Part shown: positions 49,284-59,628 of the stretch, piece by piece
Layout of the letters: each line of letters begins with the position of its first letter
How positions within the stretch are numbered: position 1 is the first letter of the stretch
NCBI GenBank assembly: GCA_001724275.1
Contig: MEDZ01000002.1
Location: 248,001 to 312,000 of the forward strand
Direction: 5' to 3'
Length of the DNA: 64,000 nucleotides
DNA from: Gemmatimonadetes bacterium SCN 70-22
GTDB taxonomy: Bacteria; Gemmatimonadota; Gemmatimonadetes; Gemmatimonadales; Gemmatimonadaceae
The notes under the pieces: model-generated
The model's input: the letters and a program-made list of their open reading frames with translations, nothing else
Told to the model about the DNA's origin: nothing
Database searches by the model: none
Position numbers and translations under genes: made by a program

Positions 49284-49355
49284 TTCGCCCCACGGAATTC
49301 GTTGCACGATTCGTGTTCCGTTCACGTTTTTCACCCCCTTGGGAGATCAGACCAG

Positions 49356-52145
49356 ATGCGAACCTGGGTTGTTCGTGCCCTAGTCCTGGCGACACTCGGT
49401 TGGGTCGTCGCATCGGCGCCGGCTCACGCGCAGACGACGATCACGCTCGAAGGCGTCGTGACGAGCACCGATGGGCAACCGATCGTCGGTGCGCAGGTGT
49501 CCGTCACCAACACCGCCACAAGTGAACGCCGCAACATCACGACGCGCCAGACCGGCGAGTTCGTCGTCCTCGGCCTCTTCTCGGGCAAGTACGTGATCGA
49601 CGTGCGCGCCCTCGGCTTCAAGCCGGTGCAGGACTCGGTCCAGCTCGTCATCGGCCAGCGCGCCCGCCTCACCATCACCATGGAACGCGGCGCCACCGAG
49701 CTGCAGGCGGTCGCCGTCACCGCCGAACGGGTGAAGCAGGTCGAGGTGCAACGCCTCTCGATCTCCGCCCCCGTCCTCAAGGAGGAGATCGAGAACCTCC
49801 CCATGAACGCACGCGGCGTCATGAACCTCGCCGCCATCGCCCCGGGGGTGAAGAGCTACGCGCCGCAGCAGGGGCGCGCGCTCCCGTCGGCCGGCGGTGC
49901 GCCGGACCTGCGCTTCATCAACCTCTACATGGACGGGGTCGAGATGAAGTCGCTGTACAACGGCAACCTCGTCGGCATTCCGCAGACCGGGTCGCCGTTG
50001 CCGCAGGAGGCGCTCGAGGAGTTCCGCGTCTACCTCAACCCGTACGACGCCGAGTACTCGCGGGCCGGATCCTACGTCATCTCGGCGGTCAGCCGCCGCG
50101 GCACCGACAAGTGGGAAGGCTCGGCGTTCGGCTTCTACCAGGGGAAGGATTACATCGCGCGGACCTTCATCCAGCAGCGCTCCAACGCCAAGCTCCCCGA
50201 CTACAGCCGCAACCAGTTCGGCTTCAACCTCCGCGGCCCCATCGCCAAGGGGAAGCTCTACTTCGCCGGGAGCTACGAGGGGACGCTGACCGACAACTAC
50301 ATCGACGTCGTCCCCACCACGTCGGCCTGGAACCAGTATCGCGGCTCGTTCCTCGCCCCGCAGAAGAACCACACCTTCTTCACCCGCCTCACCGCGACGC
50401 CCACGGAGAAGAGTACCTACGACTTCATGTGGTCGACGCGTATCCTCGATGGCGAGGGGAACTTCGGCGGGCGCTCGTCGCGCGACGCGGGGATCTCGCA
50501 GGAATACCTCATCAATACCGCGCAGCTGCGCCATCGCTGGCTCCCGACCACGAACCTCGTGAACGAGTTCTCGCTCCAGTACGTGCAGTGGGACCACACC
50601 GAGGCGCCACTCCTCCCCGGGCCCACGCGTACCTACCCGGGGATCATCACCGGCACCGCCGGCTTCCCGCTCGAGCTGCGGGAGAAGCACTTCCGCCTGG
50701 TGAACCGCTCCACCTACAACGTGGCCGACTGGGGCGGGAGCCATCTCGTCAAGTTCGGCCTCGAGTTGGCAAGGATCGACGGGAGCCAGTACCTCCCGTC
50801 CAACCAGTTCGGCTCGTTCAACTTCCTCACCGACACGTCGAGCCTCCCCAACTCCGCCTCCATCTCGGTCGGCTTCAACGACCCCAGCGGCACCGACGAC
50901 GCGCGCGCCGAGGCCACCGGCTACTCCACGGGCTTCTACATCAACGATGAGTGGCGCCCGCAGGACAACCTCTCGATCAACCTCGGCCTTCGGTACGACG
51001 CCGAGATCAACACGCTCAACAACGACTACACCGTCCCCTGGGCCAGCGACTCGCGCCTGACCTCGCGGGCCGAGTTGAATGACTACATCAACCGCGGCAA
51101 CCGCAAGAACGACCTCAACAACTTCTCGCCGCGCATCTCGTTCTCCTGGGATCCCAACCGCCGGAACCAGACCTTCGTGCGCGGTGGCTTCGCGATCCTC
51201 TTCGACCGCGTGACGTCGTTCATCGGCTTCCAGGAGCGGCTCAACTCCACCTGGCGTTCGTACACCTTCGCCAATCCGGGGACGACCGATCCGGCGGTCC
51301 TGCGCCAGCGCGTGGCAGCTGGCGGCGCCACCGCCCCCCTCTCGCCGGTCCTCGTCAAGAACCTCATGCGCACGCCCGAGAACCGGCAGTTCTCGCTCGG
51401 CATCGGGCACCAGTTCACCGACGCCTTCGGCGTCAACATGGACTACGTGCACCAGGACATCCGCAACCTGTACGTCCGCCTCAACGCCAACTGGTTCAAC
51501 CGCACCACCAACCAGCGCGTCCTGAGCTCGGCGTACGGCGACATCGTGTTGTGGGACGACTTCGGCCGCGCCAAGTTCGACGGCCTCGTGACCCAGGCCA
51601 CCTACAGCAAGAACGGCCAGCGCTTCAACCTGGCCTACACGCTGGGCTTCTATAAGTCCGACTTCGACGGCAACCTGGCCAGCATCTTCCCCAACCGCTC
51701 GTCGTACCAGATGCAGTACACGTCGGGCGACGAGCGCCATCGCTTCGTCCTGTCGGCCATCAACAAGCTCCCGCTCGGGATCCAGGCCTCGACCATCACG
51801 ACCGTCGCCTCGCCGCGCCCGTTCGTGGCCATCGACGGCAAGGACCTGAACAACAACAACGTCACCTTCGACGACTTCGCCGGCCCGGATCGCGTACAGC
51901 GTCCGGACAACTCGTGGGAGAACTGGTACAAGACCGTCGACCTTCGCCTGCAGCGCCCGCTCATCCAGCGCGGGTCGCAGAAGATCACCGTGATGGCCGA
52001 GGTCTTCAACCTGTTCAACAGCGAGAACATCTCGGCCTACGGCGGCCAGAAGTTCCAGGGGACCACGCCCATCGCGACCTTCGGCAAGTCCACCGGCGCC
52101 TTCGCCGCCCGCCAGGCGCAACTAGGGCTGAAGGTCGAGTTCTAG
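49356..52145 (+). CDS. TonB-dependent receptor with carboxypeptidase-regulatory domain
   Basis: An outer-membrane receptor of 929 residues. The signal peptide ends in AHA|QT. A carboxypeptidase-regulatory-like domain (about 27-110, ITLEGVVTSTDGQPIVGAQV) is followed by a plug (about 125-245, NARGVMNLAAIAPGVKSYAP, VEMKSLYNGNLVG). The rest is a long barrel with GNFGGRSSRDAG-type turns, ending in LGLKVEF (aromatic C terminus). It lacks a SusC-type N-terminal STN and has no SusD partner nearby, so it is probably an Oar-like receptor. The GGGAG at 49341-49345 supports the start ATG 49356. The substrate is unknown. Confidence 0.93.
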   Translation: MRTWVVRALVLATLGWVVASAPAHAQTTITLEGVVTSTDGQPIVGAQVSVTNTATSERRNITTRQTGEFVVLGLFSGKYVIDVRALGFKPVQDSVQLVIGQRARLTITMERGATELQAVAVTAERVKQVEVQRLSISAPVLKEEIENLPMNARGVMNLAAIAPGVKSYAPQQGRALPSAGGAPDLRFINLYMDGVEMKSLYNGNLVGIPQTGSPLPQEALEEFRVYLNPYDAEYSRAGSYVISAVSRRGTDKWEGSAFGFYQGKDYIARTFIQQRSNAKLPDYSRNQFGFNLRGPIAKGKLYFAGSYEGTLTDNYIDVVPTTSAWNQYRGSFLAPQKNHTFFTRLTATPTEKSTYDFMWSTRILDGEGNFGGRSSRDAGISQEYLINTAQLRHRWLPTTNLVNEFSLQYVQWDHTEAPLLPGPTRTYPGIITGTAGFPLELREKHFRLVNRSTYNVADWGGSHLVKFGLELARIDGSQYLPSNQFGSFNFLTDTSSLPNSASISVGFNDPSGTDDARAEATGYSTGFYINDEWRPQDNLSINLGLRYDAEINTLNNDYTVPWASDSRLTSRAELNDYINRGNRKNDLNNFSPRISFSWDPNRRNQTFVRGGFAILFDRVTSFIGFQERLNSTWRSYTFANPGTTDPAVLRQRVAAGGATAPLSPVLVKNLMRTPENRQFSLGIGHQFTDAFGVNMDYVHQDIRNLYVRLNANWFNRTTNQRVLSSAYGDIVLWDDFGRAKFDGLVTQATYSKNGQRFNLAYTLGFYKSDFDGNLASIFPNRSSYQMQYTSGDERHRFVLSAINKLPLGIQASTITTVASPRPFVAIDGKDLNNNNVTFDDFAGPDRVQRPDNSWENWYKTVDLRLQRPLIQRGSQKITVMAEVFNLFNSENISAYGGQKFQGTTPIATFGKSTGAFAARQAQLGLKVEF

Positions 52146-52209: not shown

Positions 52210-52734
52210 TCAGGGTGGCGCGTCCTCGGCCGGGACCGCCGATTCCGATCCCGGCGTGGCGGCGGTGCGAGTCCCCTCCAGCTCCGTCGTCAGGCGCCCC
52301 AGCAGCTGCAACGCATGCGCCCTCACTTCGTCGGTCGCTGCCTCGAGGGCCGCCGTCGCCGCACGCTCGACCGTCCCCTCGCTGTGTGACAACAGCGTCG
52401 CCCCCGCCTCGGTCAACGACACCACGACACGTCGCGCATCGGTGGCGCCTCGCGTCCGCTGCACCAGCCCGCGCCGCTCGAGTCGCGCCAGCGTGGCCGA
52501 CAGCGTCCCGGGGTGCACGTGAAGGACGCGGCTCAGGCGTCCCGCGGGCGATGGCCCCAGCACGCCGACGATCCGCAGGACCATGCGCTGCTGCGCCGTG
52601 ACACCGAACCGCCGCTGCATGTCGCTCGAGGTCGTCTCGAGCGCGTGGTTCAGGCTCCAGAGCACGCGAAGGAACTCCAGTACCGGCGGGAGCGCCGGTA
52701 CGTCGGGACGGGAAGGGGCGGCGGGGGCTGGCAT
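52210..52734 (-). CDS. MarR-family transcriptional regulator
   Basis: A 174-residue winged-helix regulator. Helices from VLEFLRVLWSLNHALETTSS lead into the DNA-binding part: GVTAQQRMVLRIVGVL, PAGRLSRVLHVHPGTLSATLARLERRGLV (recognition helix and wing) and TDARRVVVSLTEAG. It is the third gene of the otsA-otsB-marR run, 28 bp after otsB, which makes it a candidate controller of that trehalose locus. ATG 52734 is chosen because it begins the family-like N terminus. Confidence 0.9.
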   Translation of the reverse strand: MPAPAAPSRPDVPALPPVLEFLRVLWSLNHALETTSSDMQRRFGVTAQQRMVLRIVGVLGPSPAGRLSRVLHVHPGTLSATLARLERRGLVQRTRGATDARRVVVSLTEAGATLLSHSEGTVERAATAALEAATDEVRAHALQLLGRLTTELEGTRTAATPGSESAVPAEDAPP

Positions 52735-52762: not shown

Positions 52763-53581
52763 TTATTCTCGCGCCTGTGCGGATACGGACGCCAGTGGCG
52801 CGCGGGATGGCCGGCCCGGCGACCGGCGAGCCGCTCCCCGCTGGACGACCGAGAGGACGTGCTGGAGCATGCTGTCCACCGCTTCCTGCCCCGGCAGGTA
52901 GAAGCGCGCGCTCGAGCGTTTCGACTTCCCGATGCGTACTCCCACGCTCCGCGTCTGGTCGAGGACCGCGAACGCGTCTTCGTCGGTCTCCTCGTCGCCC
53001 GCGTACAGGACCACGCGTGCTGAGAGTCTCGCCTCCACCCACCGAACCGCATCCCCCTTGGTGGGCGCACCGGCCGGGACCAGGTTCACGAGGGCATGGC
53101 CTTCGGTGACGCGCACCGCGTCACCCAATTGCCGACGGACTTCCGCGAGGACCTCGCGCACCATGCGTGGCGACGAGGCGTGACGGTAGTGCACGGCGAT
53201 GGAATACACCTTGTCCTCGACATGGACGCCGGCGAGTCTCCCGACCGTCGCGTCGAGTAGGGGCCGCCACCCCGCCACCGTCCGCTTCGCACCCGCCATG
53301 GCTGCCGACGGCTCCACTCCGTGGTTCCCCACGATCGCCGCGGTCCGCACGCCGTGCAGCCGAGGCGTCACGTCGGCCACCGAGCGCCCGGAGACGATCA
53401 CCACCGGGCGTAGCTCGCTGATCGCGACGAGGAGGTGACGGGTCTCGTCACGCATGCCGGCGGCGCCCGGCACCGCCACGATCGGCGCCAGCGTCCCGTC
53501 GAAGTCGAAGGCCAGCACGCCATCGGGCCCCACGGTGCGTGCCAGGTGCAACAGGTTGCGGCGCGAGAGCAGGTTGCGCAT
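52763..53581 (-). CDS. otsB: trehalose-6-phosphate phosphatase
   Basis: A HAD-superfamily phosphatase of 272 residues that dephosphorylates trehalose 6-phosphate. Motif I is AFDFDGTLAPI (nucleophile Asp), motif II VIVSGRSV, the cap region includes GNHGVE, the Lys-containing motif III APTKGDAVRW, and motif IV YAGDEETDEDAF. The C terminus has an Arg/Ser-rich extension after the family end. The start ATG 53581 follows otsA by 2 bp, so the two enzymes are made together. No secondary hydrolase domain is present. Confidence 0.93.
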   Translation of the reverse strand: MRNLLSRRNLLHLARTVGPDGVLAFDFDGTLAPIVAVPGAAGMRDETRHLLVAISELRPVVIVSGRSVADVTPRLHGVRTAAIVGNHGVEPSAAMAGAKRTVAGWRPLLDATVGRLAGVHVEDKVYSIAVHYRHASSPRMVREVLAEVRRQLGDAVRVTEGHALVNLVPAGAPTKGDAVRWVEARLSARVVLYAGDEETDEDAFAVLDQTRSVGVRIGKSKRSSARFYLPGQEAVDSMLQHVLSVVQRGAARRSPGRPSRAPLASVSAQARE

Positions 53582-53583
53582 GG

Positions 53584-55842
53584 TCAGGCCATCCCCGCCA
53601 GCGGCTCTCCCGCCATCTGCAACGACCGGCGCGCGCGCTGGCGCAGCTGCGCAGCGTCCAGCAGCATCCGCCCCGCCCAGCGATACACGTTGCGTTCCTC
53701 CACCGTCGCGCGCAGCGCCCGCATCCGCTCCCCCTGCTCGGCCGACGACATCTCGATGGCGCGTTCCAGGGCCTCGCTCGCCGCCTCGAGGTCGTAGGGA
53801 TTCACGATGAGCGCCTCGGTCAGCTCGTGCGCGGCCCCCGCAAACTGGCTCAGCACCAGGACGCCCTGCTCGTCGTCGCGCGCCGAGACGAACTCCTTGC
53901 TCACCAGGTTCATCCCGTCGTGCAGGCTGCTCACGTAGCACAGTTGCGCGGCGCGGTAGAACCGGAAGACCCGGTCGGGCTCATGGTGCTCCCGCAGGAG
54001 GATCACCGGTTGGTAGCGCGCGTCGCCGAAGCGGGCGTTGATCCGGCGCACGCCCTCCTGCACCACGTCGGTGATCTGCTGGTAGCCCGGAATGCGCGTC
54101 CGGCTCGGTGCCGCCAGCTGCACGAAGGTGAAGCGTCCCACCAGGTCGGGGCGCCGCTCCAGGAGCCGCTCCACCGCCTCGATGCGCTCCTCGAGTCCCT
54201 TCGTGTAGTCCAGGCGGTCCACTCCGACCCCAAGGATCGCGACGGGCGCCAGCCCCAGCTCGGCGAACACCTCGCGCCGGCACGCACCCGCGGCGGGGAG
54301 TGACCGTGCCGCACGCGCGGGCCACTCCACGGAGATGGGATACGCACGCACCAGCGTGCGCGAGCCGCCGAGGATCACCGCCTGGTCCACGCGGTCGATG
54401 CGCGACTCCACGAACGTGTCCACCGCATCCAGGAACTGGTTGCAGTGCGCCTGCGTGTGAAAGCCGACGATGCTCGAGCCAAGGAGCCCGTCGATGATCT
54501 CCTCGCGCCACGGACAGATCCCGAATCGCTCGGCGTTGGGGAAGGGAATGTGCCAGAAAGTGATGACCGTCGCGCGCGGCAGGCGCTCGCGGATGAGGCG
54601 CGGCGCCAGGGCGAAGTGATAGTCCTGCACCAGCACGATCGGGTCGTCCACCGCCGCTTCCTCCACCACGGCGTCGGCGAAGCGCTCGTTGATGCGCCGG
54701 TACGCCGCCCAGTCACTCGCGCGAAACACCGGTCGCGCATACGCCACGTGACACAGCGGCCACAGCCCCTCGTTCGAGAGACCGTAGTAGTAGCCCTCCT
54801 CCTCGTCCTCGCTGAGCCATACGCGCCGCAGCGTGTACGAGTCCTCGCCAGGCGGGACGCGGAGACGCCCCTCCTGGTCCGACACGGCGCGATCGGCGTT
54901 CCCGCTGCCGTGTGCGATCCAGGTCCCCGAGCACGCCCGCATCACCGGTTCCAGGGCGCTCACCAGCCCGCTCGCCGGATGCTTCACGACGATCGCCCCG
55001 TCAGCCGCACGTTCGTGTATGTAGGGCTCGCGGTTGGCCACGATGATCAGCCCCCCGTCGTCCAGGTGCTCCACCATCGCCGAGCGGAGGCGCTCCTGCG
55101 TCCATCGCCCCGTCGCCACCGACTCCGCGGCAGCAATGGCGGCGCGCCGCTTCGCCAGGGCACGCACGTCCTCGAGCAGCGGCGACGGTGTCCTGCCGCG
55201 CTCCGCCTCACCGCGCAACGCGCGCCCGAGCTGCCGGACCCACTCGCGCGACGCCACCCGGGCCGCCAGGGCGGTCAGGAGCGATGCCACCCCCGCGGCG
55301 AGGACGAGAATCCCCAGCCCCCATGTCCGGGCGAGCCGCTCCCGCTCCATCACCTGTGAGAAATCCTGCACCACGACCAGCGACAGCCCAGCGGGAACGT
55401 CCACCCCACCTCGCACCGGGACCCACGCGACGTGCAACGCCGGGGTCGCTCCCTCCGGCGAGATGACCTTCGTCAGCGCCCCCTGGAGACGGACATCGTC
55501 GTCGAACGCTTCGCGCCTCGGACACGCCGTCGCCTCCGCCGGAAAGGCCGCGCTGCGGGCAATCGCCTCTCCCTCTCCGCCGCACAGCGCCGCTCCAATC
55601 ACCCGATCGTCACGCACGATGTCGCGCAGCAGTCGGTCGAATTGCCCCCGATCGCCCCGCGCCTCCGCCTCCACAATGGATAGACGCGCGCTCGACGCGG
55701 CCAATCGCGCCCGCTGCGTCAGCTCCGACGTGTACCAGGCGCGAGCCGCTCGCGTCACCGCCACCCCACCCACGACCGCGATCAGCGCGATCAGCAGGAG
55801 CGGTGGAATCGTCAACCGGAGCGCATTGCGGACAGGACCCAT
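53584..55842 (-). CDS. otsA: membrane-anchored trehalose-6-phosphate synthase with sensor-like N-terminus
   Basis: A 752-residue protein with an unusual layout. ATG 55842 is used (TTG 55869 is also in frame). TM1 is about residues 12-31 and a ~140-residue extracytoplasmic segment (33-172) follows. TM2 is about 174-195, then a HAMP-like cytoplasmic helix (about 196-250), and a complete GT20 domain from about 264. The GT20 part has [55 protein letters not shown] and [10 protein letters not shown], so it looks catalytically intact. Ordinary OtsA (about 470 residues) is cytosolic. The front half resembles a receptor's sensor module, so synthesis might be tied to an external signal; a glucosylglycerol-phosphate synthase is an alternative. 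otsB follows by 2 bp. Confidence 0.9.
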
Positions 55843-55886
55843 GCCTTTGAGATTAACTTGGATATCCAATTAAACCAAGCTGAGCC
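55843..55886. promoter_or_regulatory. 44-bp AT-rich divergent promoter with 12-bp palindrome
   Basis: The gap between the otsA and GH15 starts is unusually AT-rich for this DNA. TTGGATATCCAA (55858-55869) is a perfect palindrome; the 22-bp window around it (55853-55874) matches its own complement at about 9 of 11 positions. One repressor or activator bound here would control both directions. The co-transcribed MarR is the obvious candidate. Confidence 0.6.
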
Positions 55887-57653
55887 ATGCACCTCGAGCA
55901 CATCGGACTGATTGGAAATTGCCAATGCTCGGCGCTCGTCGCCGCAAATGGCGATGTCACATGGTGTTGCCTGCCACGATTCGACTCGCCACCTGCCTTC
56001 GGCGCCCTCCTGGATCCCGATGCAGGACACTTCCAGATCGCCCCGGCCAACGGAGGCACGGGACAACAGCGCTATCTCGAGAACACCAACGTCCTCGAAA
56101 CCACTTTCTCCACCCCAGATGGCCGCTTCCGCGTCCTCGACTTCGCCCCGCGCTTCTCCATCCACGAACGCTCCTTCCGCCCAACCAAGCTCGTCCGTAT
56201 CGTCGAGCCGCTGGAGGGGACGCCGCGCCTGCGCGTCGTCTGCGACCCGATCCTGGGATGGGACAAGCGCCGCCCCGCCGTGGAGCTCGGATCCAACCAC
56301 ATCGACTTCCTCGGCTTCCCCGCGACCGTCCGCCTCACCACCGATATCCCCCTCTCCTACGTCGGCGGGCCAGCATTTGCCCTGAGCGAACGACGCCATC
56401 TCGTGCTCGCCTTCGGAGCCCCGGTCGAGGAACCCCTCAAGCCCCTCTGCGACCGTCTCCTGCGCGAAACCGTCGACTACTGGGTCCGCTGGGTCAAGCA
56501 GTGCAACATCCCGCCGCTCTTCCAGAAAGAGGTCATTCGCTCCGCCCTCGCCCTCAAGCTCCACTGCTTCGAGGACACCGGCGCCATCGTGGCTTCCATG
56601 ACGACCTCCATCCCGGAGTCGCCGGGAAGCGGACGCACATGGGACTATCGCTACTGCTGGCTCCGCGATGCGTACTACGTGCTCGGCGCCTTCGAACTCC
56701 TCGGCCACTTCGAGGAGCGCGAGCAGTTCCTGCACTATCTCCTGACCGTCGCCTCCGCGGTCGCCGATCTCGACCTGGCCCCGCTCTACCGGGTCGATGC
56801 CAGCAGCGACGTCCCCGAGATCATCTGCCCCTCGTGGGCCGGGTACGAGGGGTACGGTCCTGTTCGCATCGGTAACGCCGCCGCCCAGCAGGTGCAAAAC
56901 GACATCTTCGGCGAGCTCGTCCTCTCGCTCGCCCCGCTTTTCATGGACGAGCGCTTCCGCCCCGACCAGACGCCGACCACGCTCGCCCTCATGACGCGGC
57001 TCGCGCGCAAGGCGATCGCCGTCGCCGACCGGCCCGATGCGGGAATCTGGGAGTATCGCGCCCCCACCACGGGACCGCAGACTTTCTCAGTGCTCATGTC
57101 CTGGGCGGCTGCGGATCGCATGCGCGCCGTGGCCGAGCGTCACGCTCCCCACCTCGTCGCCGAGTTTGCCGAGGCCGCCGACCGCCTCCGTCGGGAGATC
57201 ATGGACCGGGCCTGGAACCCGGCGCTCGGCACCTTTGCCTCCACGTACGATGGCGACGCGCTCGACGCCTCGGTGCTGCAGGCGGTGACCCTCCGCCTCG
57301 TTGCACCTGACGATTGGCGTGCGGGGGCCACCATCGACGTCCTGCGGGGCGTCCTCGAGGATGACGGCTGGATGTACCGCTACAAGCGCGACGACGACTT
57401 CGGTGCCCCCGCCATCCCGTTCGTCATCTGCACGTTCTGGCTCATCGAGGCACTCGCCCGCACCGGGCGAGGCGATGAGGCCCGCGCGCTCCTGCAACGC
57501 GTCGCCGCCCAGCTCCCCCCACTGGGTTTGATGTCCGAGGACTTCGACCCGCACGAACGCCGCTTCTGGGGCAACTTCCCCCAGGCGTATTCGCACGTGG
57601 GGCTCATCCGTGCTGCCTTCGCCGCCTCCCCGGGCTGGCACGAAGTCGTCTGA
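55887..57653 (+). CDS. glycoside hydrolase family 15 protein (trehalase/glucoamylase-like)
   Basis: A 588-residue cytoplasmic enzyme without a signal peptide. The N-terminal beta-sandwich (HIGLIGNCQCSALVAANGDVTWCCLP, FDSPPAFG) is the trehalase-like TREH_N domain. An (alpha/alpha)6 barrel follows with SGRTWDYRYCWLRD, an acid-bearing GIWEYRAP, and the late FPQAYSHVGLI catalytic base region. Actinobacterial GH15 trehalases have this layout, and divergent placement from the trehalose biosynthesis genes argues for trehalose as substrate. Glucoamylase or isomaltose activity is possible. Start ATG 55887 lies 44 bp from the otsA start. Confidence 0.9.
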   Translation: MHLEHIGLIGNCQCSALVAANGDVTWCCLPRFDSPPAFGALLDPDAGHFQIAPANGGTGQQRYLENTNVLETTFSTPDGRFRVLDFAPRFSIHERSFRPTKLVRIVEPLEGTPRLRVVCDPILGWDKRRPAVELGSNHIDFLGFPATVRLTTDIPLSYVGGPAFALSERRHLVLAFGAPVEEPLKPLCDRLLRETVDYWVRWVKQCNIPPLFQKEVIRSALALKLHCFEDTGAIVASMTTSIPESPGSGRTWDYRYCWLRDAYYVLGAFELLGHFEEREQFLHYLLTVASAVADLDLAPLYRVDASSDVPEIICPSWAGYEGYGPVRIGNAAAQQVQNDIFGELVLSLAPLFMDERFRPDQTPTTLALMTRLARKAIAVADRPDAGIWEYRAPTTGPQTFSVLMSWAAADRMRAVAERHAPHLVAEFAEAADRLRREIMDRAWNPALGTFASTYDGDALDASVLQAVTLRLVAPDDWRAGATIDVLRGVLEDDGWMYRYKRDDDFGAPAIPFVICTFWLIEALARTGRGDEARALLQRVAAQLPPLGLMSEDFDPHERRFWGNFPQAYSHVGLIRAAFAASPGWHEVV

Positions 57654-57705: not shown

Positions 57706-57990
57706 TCAGTCGCGCTCGTACCCCTGACGCGCCTGCGCGTAGCCGCCGGCGTCCACCACCCGGCGATACCCCATGCGCCGCAGCGTCTCGGCCGCCGATG
57801 CGGAGCGGGCTCCGCTGGCGCAGTAGACCATGATCGAGGAGTCGCGCGTGATGTCGTCACGCTCGAGGATGGCGTGATCGATCCCGTTGACCGGCATGCA
57901 GATGGCGCCCGGGAGGTGACCGAAGAAGAACTCCAGGTGCGAGCGCACGTCGATGACCGCATCGACCTTCTTGTTGTTGAACTTCGCCAT
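57706..57990 (-). CDS. single-domain rhodanese-like protein
   Basis: A 94-residue protein consisting of one rhodanese domain. The N terminus (VDAVIDVRSHLEFFFGHLPGAICMPV) and the active-site loop VYCASGARSASA with the catalytic Cys are present. ATG 57990 follows GGAGA by 5 bases, and residues upstream are non-conserved. It would accept or transfer sulfane sulfur. It diverges from an SQR-like flavoprotein across an AT-rich region, so the pair plausibly handles sulfide-derived persulfide. Confidence 0.92.
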   Translation of the reverse strand: MAKFNNKKVDAVIDVRSHLEFFFGHLPGAICMPVNGIDHAILERDDITRDSSIMVYCASGARSASAAETLRRMGYRRVVDAGGYAQARQGYERD

Positions 57991-58104
57991 GCCGTTCTCC
58001 GGGTTCTCCTGACGTACACGTGGTGAGGGGATGCTACCTTCGTGCGGCAGCAGGCGTCGATCCGGGGAAATCTGCACGCCGACCGACCATTAATCAACCA
58101 TATA

Positions 58105-58120
58105 GTGATATAGTTATCAC
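58105..58120. promoter_or_regulatory. inverted repeat in rhodanese/SQR divergent promoter
   Basis: GTGATA-TAGT-TATCAC is a perfect 6-bp inverted repeat in the AT-rich centre of the 180-bp gap. TATAGT (58101-58106) next to it could be a -10 box toward the SQR-like gene. A repressor bound here would block it. SqrR/BigR-type ArsR regulators control such genes elsewhere, but none is in this window. Confidence 0.45.
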
Positions 58121-58170
58121 ATATCGCTCGTCGCCGTCGCTGCCCCGGCAGCCCCACATGGAGACCAGGC

Positions 58171-59628
58171 ATGAGCCGCACCGTCATCCTCGGCGCCGGG
58201 ATTTCCGGCCACACCGCCGCCACCCGGCTGCGCCAGCGCCTCGGGCGCAACCACGACGTCATCGTCGTCACGCCCAACGCCAGGTGGAACTGGATCCCCT
58301 CCAATATCTGGGTCGGCGTGGGGCGCATGACGTCGGACGACGTCACCTTCCCCCTCGCGCCCGTCTACGCGAAGCTCGGCATCACCTACGTCCAGGCACG
58401 GGCCACCGAGCTCCATCCCGAGGGCGACGCCGCGAGCCCGGCCGCGTACGTCACCGTCGAGCACACCAGCCCCGAACGGCGTGGCGAGGTCGAGCGCATT
58501 CCCTACGACTTCCTGGTGAACGCCACCGGCCCGAAGCTCAACTTCGGCGCCGTGCAGGGACTCGGCCCGGACGGGCACTCCCTCTCCGTCTGCACCGCAT
58601 CCCACGCCACCGAGGCCGCCAAGGCGCTGGCGCTCGCCATCGAGCGGATGCGGCGCGGTGAACGCCAGACGCTCGTCGTCGGCACCAGCCACGGCACCTG
58701 CACCTGCGAAGGCGCCGCCTTCGAGTACGTCTTCAATGTCGAGCACGAGATCCGCACGCGCGGGCTCCGCCACCTGGCGGACATCGTCTACCTGTCCAAC
58801 GAGCACGAACTCGGCGACTTCGGCGTGGCGGGGCTGCACGTCGAGGTCGGCGGCTTCATCACGCACAGCAAGACGTGGGCGGAGTCGCTGTACGCGGAGC
58901 GCGGCATCCGCTGGATCCTGCAGGCGCACGTCGAGCGCGTCGAGCCCGGCGAGGTCTTCTACGAGACGCTCGACGGCGCGCACCACTCGCTGAAGTTCGA
59001 CTTCGCCATGCTCCTCCCCCCCTTCGGCGGGGTGGGGCTCAGGTCGTTCGACCAGGCCGGACACGACACGACCGCCGAGCTCTTCGCCCCGAACGGCTTC
59101 ATGCGCGTCGATGCCGACTACACGCAGAAAACCTTCGACCAGTGGGACGCCGGCGACTGGCCCTCCACCTACCAGACGCCCCGCTACGACAACGTCTTCG
59201 CGGTCGGGATCGCCTTCGCCCCGCCGCACCAGATCTCGAAGCCCTTCAAGAGCCCCAACGGGACGGTCATCACCCCCTCGCCCCCGCGCACCGGAATGCC
59301 GAGCGGCATCATGGGACGCGTGGTCGCGAACACCATCGCCGATCGCATCCTGCGCGGACGCGACTCCAAGGCGCACACGGCGTCGATGGCGCGCATGGGA
59401 GCGGCCTGCATTGCCTCGGCGGGCGCCTCGTTGCTGAAGGGGACGGCGGCCGCCATGACCATGTACCCCATCGTCCCCGACTACAAGCGCTTCCCGGTGT
59501 TCGGTCGCGACCTCCGGTACACCTTCGGCGAGATCGGGCTCGGGGCCCACTGGATCAAGCGCATCCTGCATCACGCCTTCATCTGGAAGGCCAAGGCAAG
59601 GCCCGGATGGCAGTTCATCCCGGAATAG
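58171..59628 (+). CDS. sulfide:quinone oxidoreductase-like flavoprotein
   Basis: A 485-residue FAD-dependent pyridine-nucleotide-disulfide-family oxidoreductase. The FAD fold is at the N terminus (TVILGAGISGHTAATRLR), a second Rossmann-like turn is TLVVGTSHGTCTCEGAAFEY, and the FAD-site segment VFAVGIAFAPP lies in the C-terminal half. Two cysteines in GTCTCEG stand where the redox cysteine of SQR enzymes lies. The extended C terminus with hydrophobic segments would bind the membrane. Sulfide oxidation to persulfide with quinone reduction is the family inference; the divergent rhodanese supports it. The first gene of a two-gene run with a 56-residue protein. Confidence 0.88.
   Translation: MSRTVILGAGISGHTAATRLRQRLGRNHDVIVVTPNARWNWIPSNIWVGVGRMTSDDVTFPLAPVYAKLGITYVQARATELHPEGDAASPAAYVTVEHTSPERRGEVERIPYDFLVNATGPKLNFGAVQGLGPDGHSLSVCTASHATEAAKALALAIERMRRGERQTLVVGTSHGTCTCEGAAFEYVFNVEHEIRTRGLRHLADIVYLSNEHELGDFGVAGLHVEVGGFITHSKTWAESLYAERGIRWILQAHVERVEPGEVFYETLDGAHHSLKFDFAMLLPPFGGVGLRSFDQAGHDTTAELFAPNGFMRVDADYTQKTFDQWDAGDWPSTYQTPRYDNVFAVGIAFAPPHQISKPFKSPNGTVITPSPPRTGMPSGIMGRVVANTIADRILRGRDSKAHTASMARMGAACIASAGASLLKGTAAAMTMYPIVPDYKRFPVFGRDLRYTFGEIGLGAHWIKRILHHAFIWKAKARPGWQFIPE

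Follow-up and report, generated by a model that had tools for sequence, protein, structure and literature searches.

Known transmembrane receptor enzymes that combine Cache and HAMP domains have signaling outputs, namely kinases, chemoreceptor domains, cyclases and phosphatases. Apart from the SMP_2 family, known signaling outputs were the only ones that a survey of Cache proteins reported, and its models were derived from proteins picked for such outputs (PMC4822843). In Ramlibacter tataouinensis, a gene cluster of trehalose-6-phosphate phosphatase (TPP), GH15 trehalase and trehalose-6-phosphate synthase (TPS) is called operon-like (PMC3164672). Our search of the literature, with most subscription journals outside its reach, found no description of a membrane- or sensor-linked TPS.

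Here we report on a TPS whose catalytic domain follows a predicted membrane module of the sensor type. It is encoded in the window, by which we mean the whole 64,000-nucleotide stretch of DNA analyzed, and has the following parts.

53584..55842, minus strand: membrane-linked TPS, 752 amino acids (ORF translation; full-length homologues with identical layout)
55744..55821, minus strand: TM1, residues 8-33 (hydrophobic helix; AlphaFold2 helix 3-62)
55357..55743, minus strand: predicted extracytoplasmic PDC/Cache-like domain, residues 34-162 (AlphaFold2 model; structure matches to WalK/CitA; invariant columns)
55258..55341, minus strand: TM2, residues 168-195 (AlphaFold2 helix 162-209; conservation)
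55102..55257, minus strand: HAMP-like two-helix linker, residues 196-247 (AlphaFold2 helices to 209 and 221-244; weak in-register HAMP profile match)
53638..55056, minus strand: GT20 catalytic domain, residues 263-735 (Pfam; NCBIfam; alignment to solved TPS; invariant columns)

The ORF begins with an ATG; an alternative TTG 27 bases upstream is possible and not required. The ORF and the AlphaFold2 model agree with the coordinates and the order of TM1, extracytoplasmic part, TM2, HAMP-like helix and GT20 domain that an earlier note had given for this DNA. The extracytoplasmic segment is present as proposed there, but it comprises approximately 130 residues (~34-162) rather than about 140. The likeness to sensor kinases and chemoreceptors in layout is supported, dozens of homologues have the same layout, and the predicted fold is Cache/PDC-like. 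An annotation artefact, a frameshift or chance was considered as the origin of the fusion and ruled out, because the reading frame is single and open and the layout is kept in dozens of orthologues.

GT20 is the sole Pfam match of the protein and spans residues 265-729 (E 2e-113; 380 bits against a cut-off of 32.5), and with positions 3-470 of the 473 in the profile covered, the domain is complete, as the earlier note had held. There is no GT20 protein besides this TPS in its own genome. The best PDB sequence matches are bacterial and fungal TPS, and these span only residues ~262-745. R271, W308, Y352, W361, D407, H431, R543, K548, R581, D642 and E650 are invariant in 46 members, among which the positions aligned to the OtsA donor and acceptor sites are also conserved (alignment with 5jij); we take these positions to have the corresponding active-site roles. 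The GT20 domain might yield another product instead of trehalose-6-phosphate, for example, glucosylglycerol phosphate, given that the protein misses the NCBIfam equivalog cut-off for OtsA (408.5 vs 564.85 bits) and that the subfamily signature, SNREPYIH, departs from the classical SNRLP forms. However, the OtsA model outscores the GGPS model (408 vs 299 bits), the top PDB matches are TPS, the positions that align with the OtsA active site do not vary, and the gene has conserved neighbors in TPP and a trehalase-like gene, so that we regard a different product as quite improbable. The window protein thus presumably has TPS chemistry, and homology together with the TPP and trehalase-like neighbors suggests that it can be called an osmoprotectant synthase. 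Searches of its own genome for TreS and TreY gave just weak matches below the cut-offs, all in one 798-amino acid ORF, and therefore no second trehalose route by these two models.

An AlphaFold2 model of residues 1-271, built from 93 sequences, has a mean pLDDT of 84. It predicts a helix at residues 3-62 that comprises TM1 and its extension, a helix at 65-78, strands at 81-87, 93-96, 122-127, 136-142 and 154-160, a helix at 162-209 that includes TM2, and a last helix at 221-244. The model thus has, as predicted, the long N-terminal helix and the antiparallel sheet between two TM helices by which a Cache/PDC fold is recognized. Foldseek ranked WalK first (E 2.5e-7), followed by extracellular domains of WalK. 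With a second structure aligner (VIA), WalK TM1-sensor-TM2 aligned to residues 1-198 of the model over 188 residues at 3.9 A (Z 12.1), the WalK sensor domain scored Z 11.4 and CitA Z 9.0-10.9. Almost all matches listed by this aligner are extracytoplasmic domains of sensors or chemoreceptors, that of LuxQ among them. The WalK and CitA domains are crystal structures and carry more weight, since the WalK structure that includes the TM helices comes from integrative modeling. The earlier note had allowed for the N-terminal half showing no conserved sensor fold; the structure prediction found one of sensor type.

Sequence families gave a different picture of the same region. No Pfam Cache, CHASE or PAS model scored above its cut-off, and the N-terminal half of the window TPS has no Pfam match. 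The best match to a sensor family was a weak one to CHASE4 (E 0.007) in 4 of the 46 members, and the divergent locus L174 matched sCache_3_2 below the cut-off (E 0.03). An N-terminal profile found nothing among PDB sequences (best E 2.3, citrate synthase), and elsewhere in the own genome it gave a chance-level match only (E 0.10). We read the extracytoplasmic part as a single Cache/PDC-type domain by its predicted fold, outside every defined Pfam Cache family.

The HAMP-like helix named in the earlier note is upheld in part. The topology after TM2 fits a HAMP domain, but identification by sequence fails: Pfam HAMP had no match in the 46 members, nor in 10 divergent ones. A profile made from HAMP domains of the own and related genomes aligned in register after TM2, yet weakly, with a probability of 9.6% when the TM was included and 0.9% when it was not, against 0.2% for reversed controls.

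The N terminus was surveyed in other GT20 proteins. Among 395 Gemmatimonadota genomes, 149 had a match to the window TPS, and in 29 it extended over nearly the full length. Relatives with the fusion come from six further phyla, namely Pseudomonadota, Acidobacteriota, Thermodesulfobacteriota, Myxococcota, Bdellovibrionota and Nitrospirota. When genome contigs were scanned with the N-terminal alignment, 77 of the best 80 of 544 relatives matched from residue 1, and the matches of the remaining three began at residues 4, 27 and 47. Sampled surveys with the N-terminal profile gave matches, including partial ones, in 22 of 247 genomes from the phylum of Geothrix and in 23 of 247 from that of Geobacter. 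In Pseudomonadota, 13 of 398 genomes matched, 4 of them including the extracytoplasmic part and the other 9 only in the segment before GT20. Almost all N-terminal profile matches reach the GT20 border in ORFs long enough for the fusion. Named carriers include Geothrix fuzhouensis, Sulfurisoma sediminicola and Methylotetracoccus oryzae. No N-terminal module was found on plasmids. Occurrence is patchy, and a genome of the same genus (G089, listed as 100% complete) is without a match. Judging from these sequences, the membrane-sensor-type TPS is a widespread architecture and is not restricted to the source genome. The earlier note had also allowed for orthologues without the N-terminal half; the survey did not overturn its reading.

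In a tree of GT20 domains, from which eleven rows including L172 and L173 were left out, the membrane forms constitute one clade (support 100/99), apart from soluble relatives that carry the signature SNREPYEH. The lone row inside this clade that appeared soluble, L030, is incomplete, its match starting 68 bases after the end of a contig. The sensor-like module was probably fused to TPS once, and the history of membrane TPS is best read as a single gain of the two-TM module and a single reduction to the one-TM form. The window TPS groups with L003 and L210, with L168-L170 from the Acidobacteriota survey as sister. Between this group and the main clade, GT20 domains are 58-60% identical and N-terminal regions just 20-37%; for the window copy itself, the N-terminal half is ~25% identical to the main clade. 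By these comparisons, divergence seems to have been faster on the input side than on the output side. One genome (G134) has two membrane TPS copies, a main-clade one (L208) with TPP and GH15, and the window-type L210, where TPP is present and no GH15 match occurs in 14 kb.

Departures from the two-TM layout were also observed. In L152-L160, a single TM and a short linker replace the sensor module; a named example of the single-TM form is on the Aminobacter plasmid NZ_AP017988. The TPS at L173:82-1998 has two close hydrophobic segments and no extracytoplasmic domain, and the similar L172 keeps the domain, which L173 seems to have lost too.

The single-TM lineage and L173 indicate that the enzyme may not need a sensor. 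It is thus conceivable that the N-terminal half is an anchor or scaffold only, which puts TPS at the inner membrane, perhaps for assembly with TPP or for dimerization, and that the PDC-like domain survives as a structural remnant. An entire lineage with one TM and a short linker, the Aminobacter plasmid copy included, is in line with this, as is the retention of two hydrophobic segments in L173. By contrast, the predicted sensor-type fold is intact, and two cysteines of the extracytoplasmic domain, C87 and C107, are invariant in 93 sequences along with W36, R44, P101 and D160; more divergent lineages (for example, L166 and L171-L175) are without one or both cysteines. Between groups of the main clade, TM1 is 56-70% identical, and the extracytoplasmic domain is more variable (37-51%). 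At an equal enzyme divergence of 70-85% GT20 identity, pairwise identity averages 60-76% for the TM1 and TM2 helices of the sensor form, compared with 24-35% for the anchor helix of the single-TM form, and the HAMP-like linker is 57-73% identical, compared with 27-45% in the single-TM clade; the single-TM control consists of nine sequences, and the pairs are non-independent. Sensor-form helices about twice as conserved as a true anchor argue against a plain anchor, which we consider rather unlikely. The conservation argues for a specific function of these helices, either in signaling or in oligomer contacts.

The genes around the TPS are arranged as follows.

52210..52734, minus strand: MarR-family regulator, 174 amino acids, directly downstream of TPP (Pfam MarR 7.9e-12)
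52763..53581, minus strand: TPP (Pfam Trehalose_PPase 1.2e-30)
55843..55886, no strand: divergent promoter region of TPS and GH15, 44 bp between the start codons
55858..55869, no strand: perfect 12-bp palindrome TTGGATATCCAA in the 44-bp region, candidate MarR operator
55887..57653, plus strand: GH15 trehalase-like protein with TREH_N, divergent from TPS (Pfam GH15 6e-44 and TREH_N)

The ATG of TPP lies 2 nt beyond the TPS stop codon. The best NCBIfam match of the GH15 protein is the archaeal TreH1 model, below its cut-off. Of 80 related loci, 72 have TPP near TPS and 55 have a GH15 trehalase-like gene there, and six loci (L091, L096, L105, L107, L108 and L111) have a divergent GH15 followed by TPS-TPP-MarR in the same order as the window. 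The palindrome TTGGATATCCAA occurs once in the 64-kb window, against an expectation of 0.02 when one mismatch is tolerated. Other loci of the GH15/TPS-TPP-MarR type have a similar motif, AT-rich and palindromic in part, at the equivalent position. MarR would bind at this candidate operator and is likely to control both the TPS-side transcript and that of GH15. The earlier note had envisaged a coupling "without a regulator"; for expression this is doubtful, because a MarR gene adjoins TPP and the promoter region carries an operator-like motif. Farther out in the window, a carboxypeptidase-regulatory-like and TonB-dependent-receptor-like outer membrane barrel protein (49302-52145, plus strand) is convergent with the MarR gene, and a rhodanese-domain protein (minus strand) lies beside an FAD/NAD(P) oxidoreductase of the Pyr_redox_2 type (plus strand) at 57706-59628.

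The conserved pairing with a trehalase-like gene also bears on what the extracytoplasmic domain may bind. Cache-fold domains are usually small-molecule binders, and the extracytoplasmic domains of WalK and LuxQ, both among the structure matches, work with partner proteins. The domain could thus bind a carbohydrate, such as periplasmic trehalose or glucose, or a partner protein as feedback, and not respond to osmotic or membrane stress. We consider this version unlikely as stated; it is a special case of the explanation that we prefer and is compatible with it.

The explanation to which we lean, with confidence only a little better than even, is an inner-membrane receptor-enzyme in which a Cache/PDC-type domain exerts allosteric control over TPS. 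In the topology that we infer, two TM helices would hold a single such domain outside the cytoplasm, and its state would be passed through TM2 and the HAMP-like helical linker to the cytoplasmic GT20 domain, whose output, the rate of trehalose-6-phosphate synthesis, would be set accordingly by the state of the domain. TPP would take off the phosphate, the divergent GH15 enzyme would probably degrade trehalose, and the MarR repressor, probably autoregulated, would set expression on both sides. We favor this sensor function because of the predicted fold, the invariant residues, the conservation of TM helices and linker, the single clade, the linkage by fusion and the gene neighborhood. It is weakened by the failure of Pfam to detect HAMP, by the single-TM sister lineage and L173 without the domain, and by the ~25% identity of the window N terminus; conservation of the TM helices could instead reflect packing or oligomer contacts. 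More tentatively, and with confidence short of even, we propose an undescribed and widespread class of receptor-enzymes whose extracytoplasmic Cache domain gates a metabolic sugar synthase directly, where trehalose-6-phosphate or trehalose is the direct response to an external signal, and where the input has diversified from lineage to lineage while the output stayed fixed. A sensor wired directly to osmoprotectant synthesis, if true, would be a stress response in one protein.

In conclusion, the architecture is real and conserved, and it apparently has a single origin. Compared with known systems, the gene set of TPS, TPP and GH15 is identical to that of the Ramlibacter tataouinensis cluster, and the passages on that cluster say nothing of a membrane-bound or sensory portion (PMC3164672). 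The single-TM TPS lineage has the GT20 clade and a conserved segment before GT20 in common with the window TPS but, unlike it, has one TM and no extracytoplasmic domain. OtsA-type TPS likewise have a complete GT20 domain with the active-site residues retained, whereas nothing in the matched structures corresponds to the 262-residue N-terminal module. With the sensor histidine kinases WalK/YycG and CitA, at ~10-16% sequence identity and with HAMP unconfirmed by sequence, the window TPS shares by predicted fold TM1, a single PDC/Cache-like domain, TM2 and a helical linker; the output is a kinase in these proteins and a sugar synthase in the window TPS.
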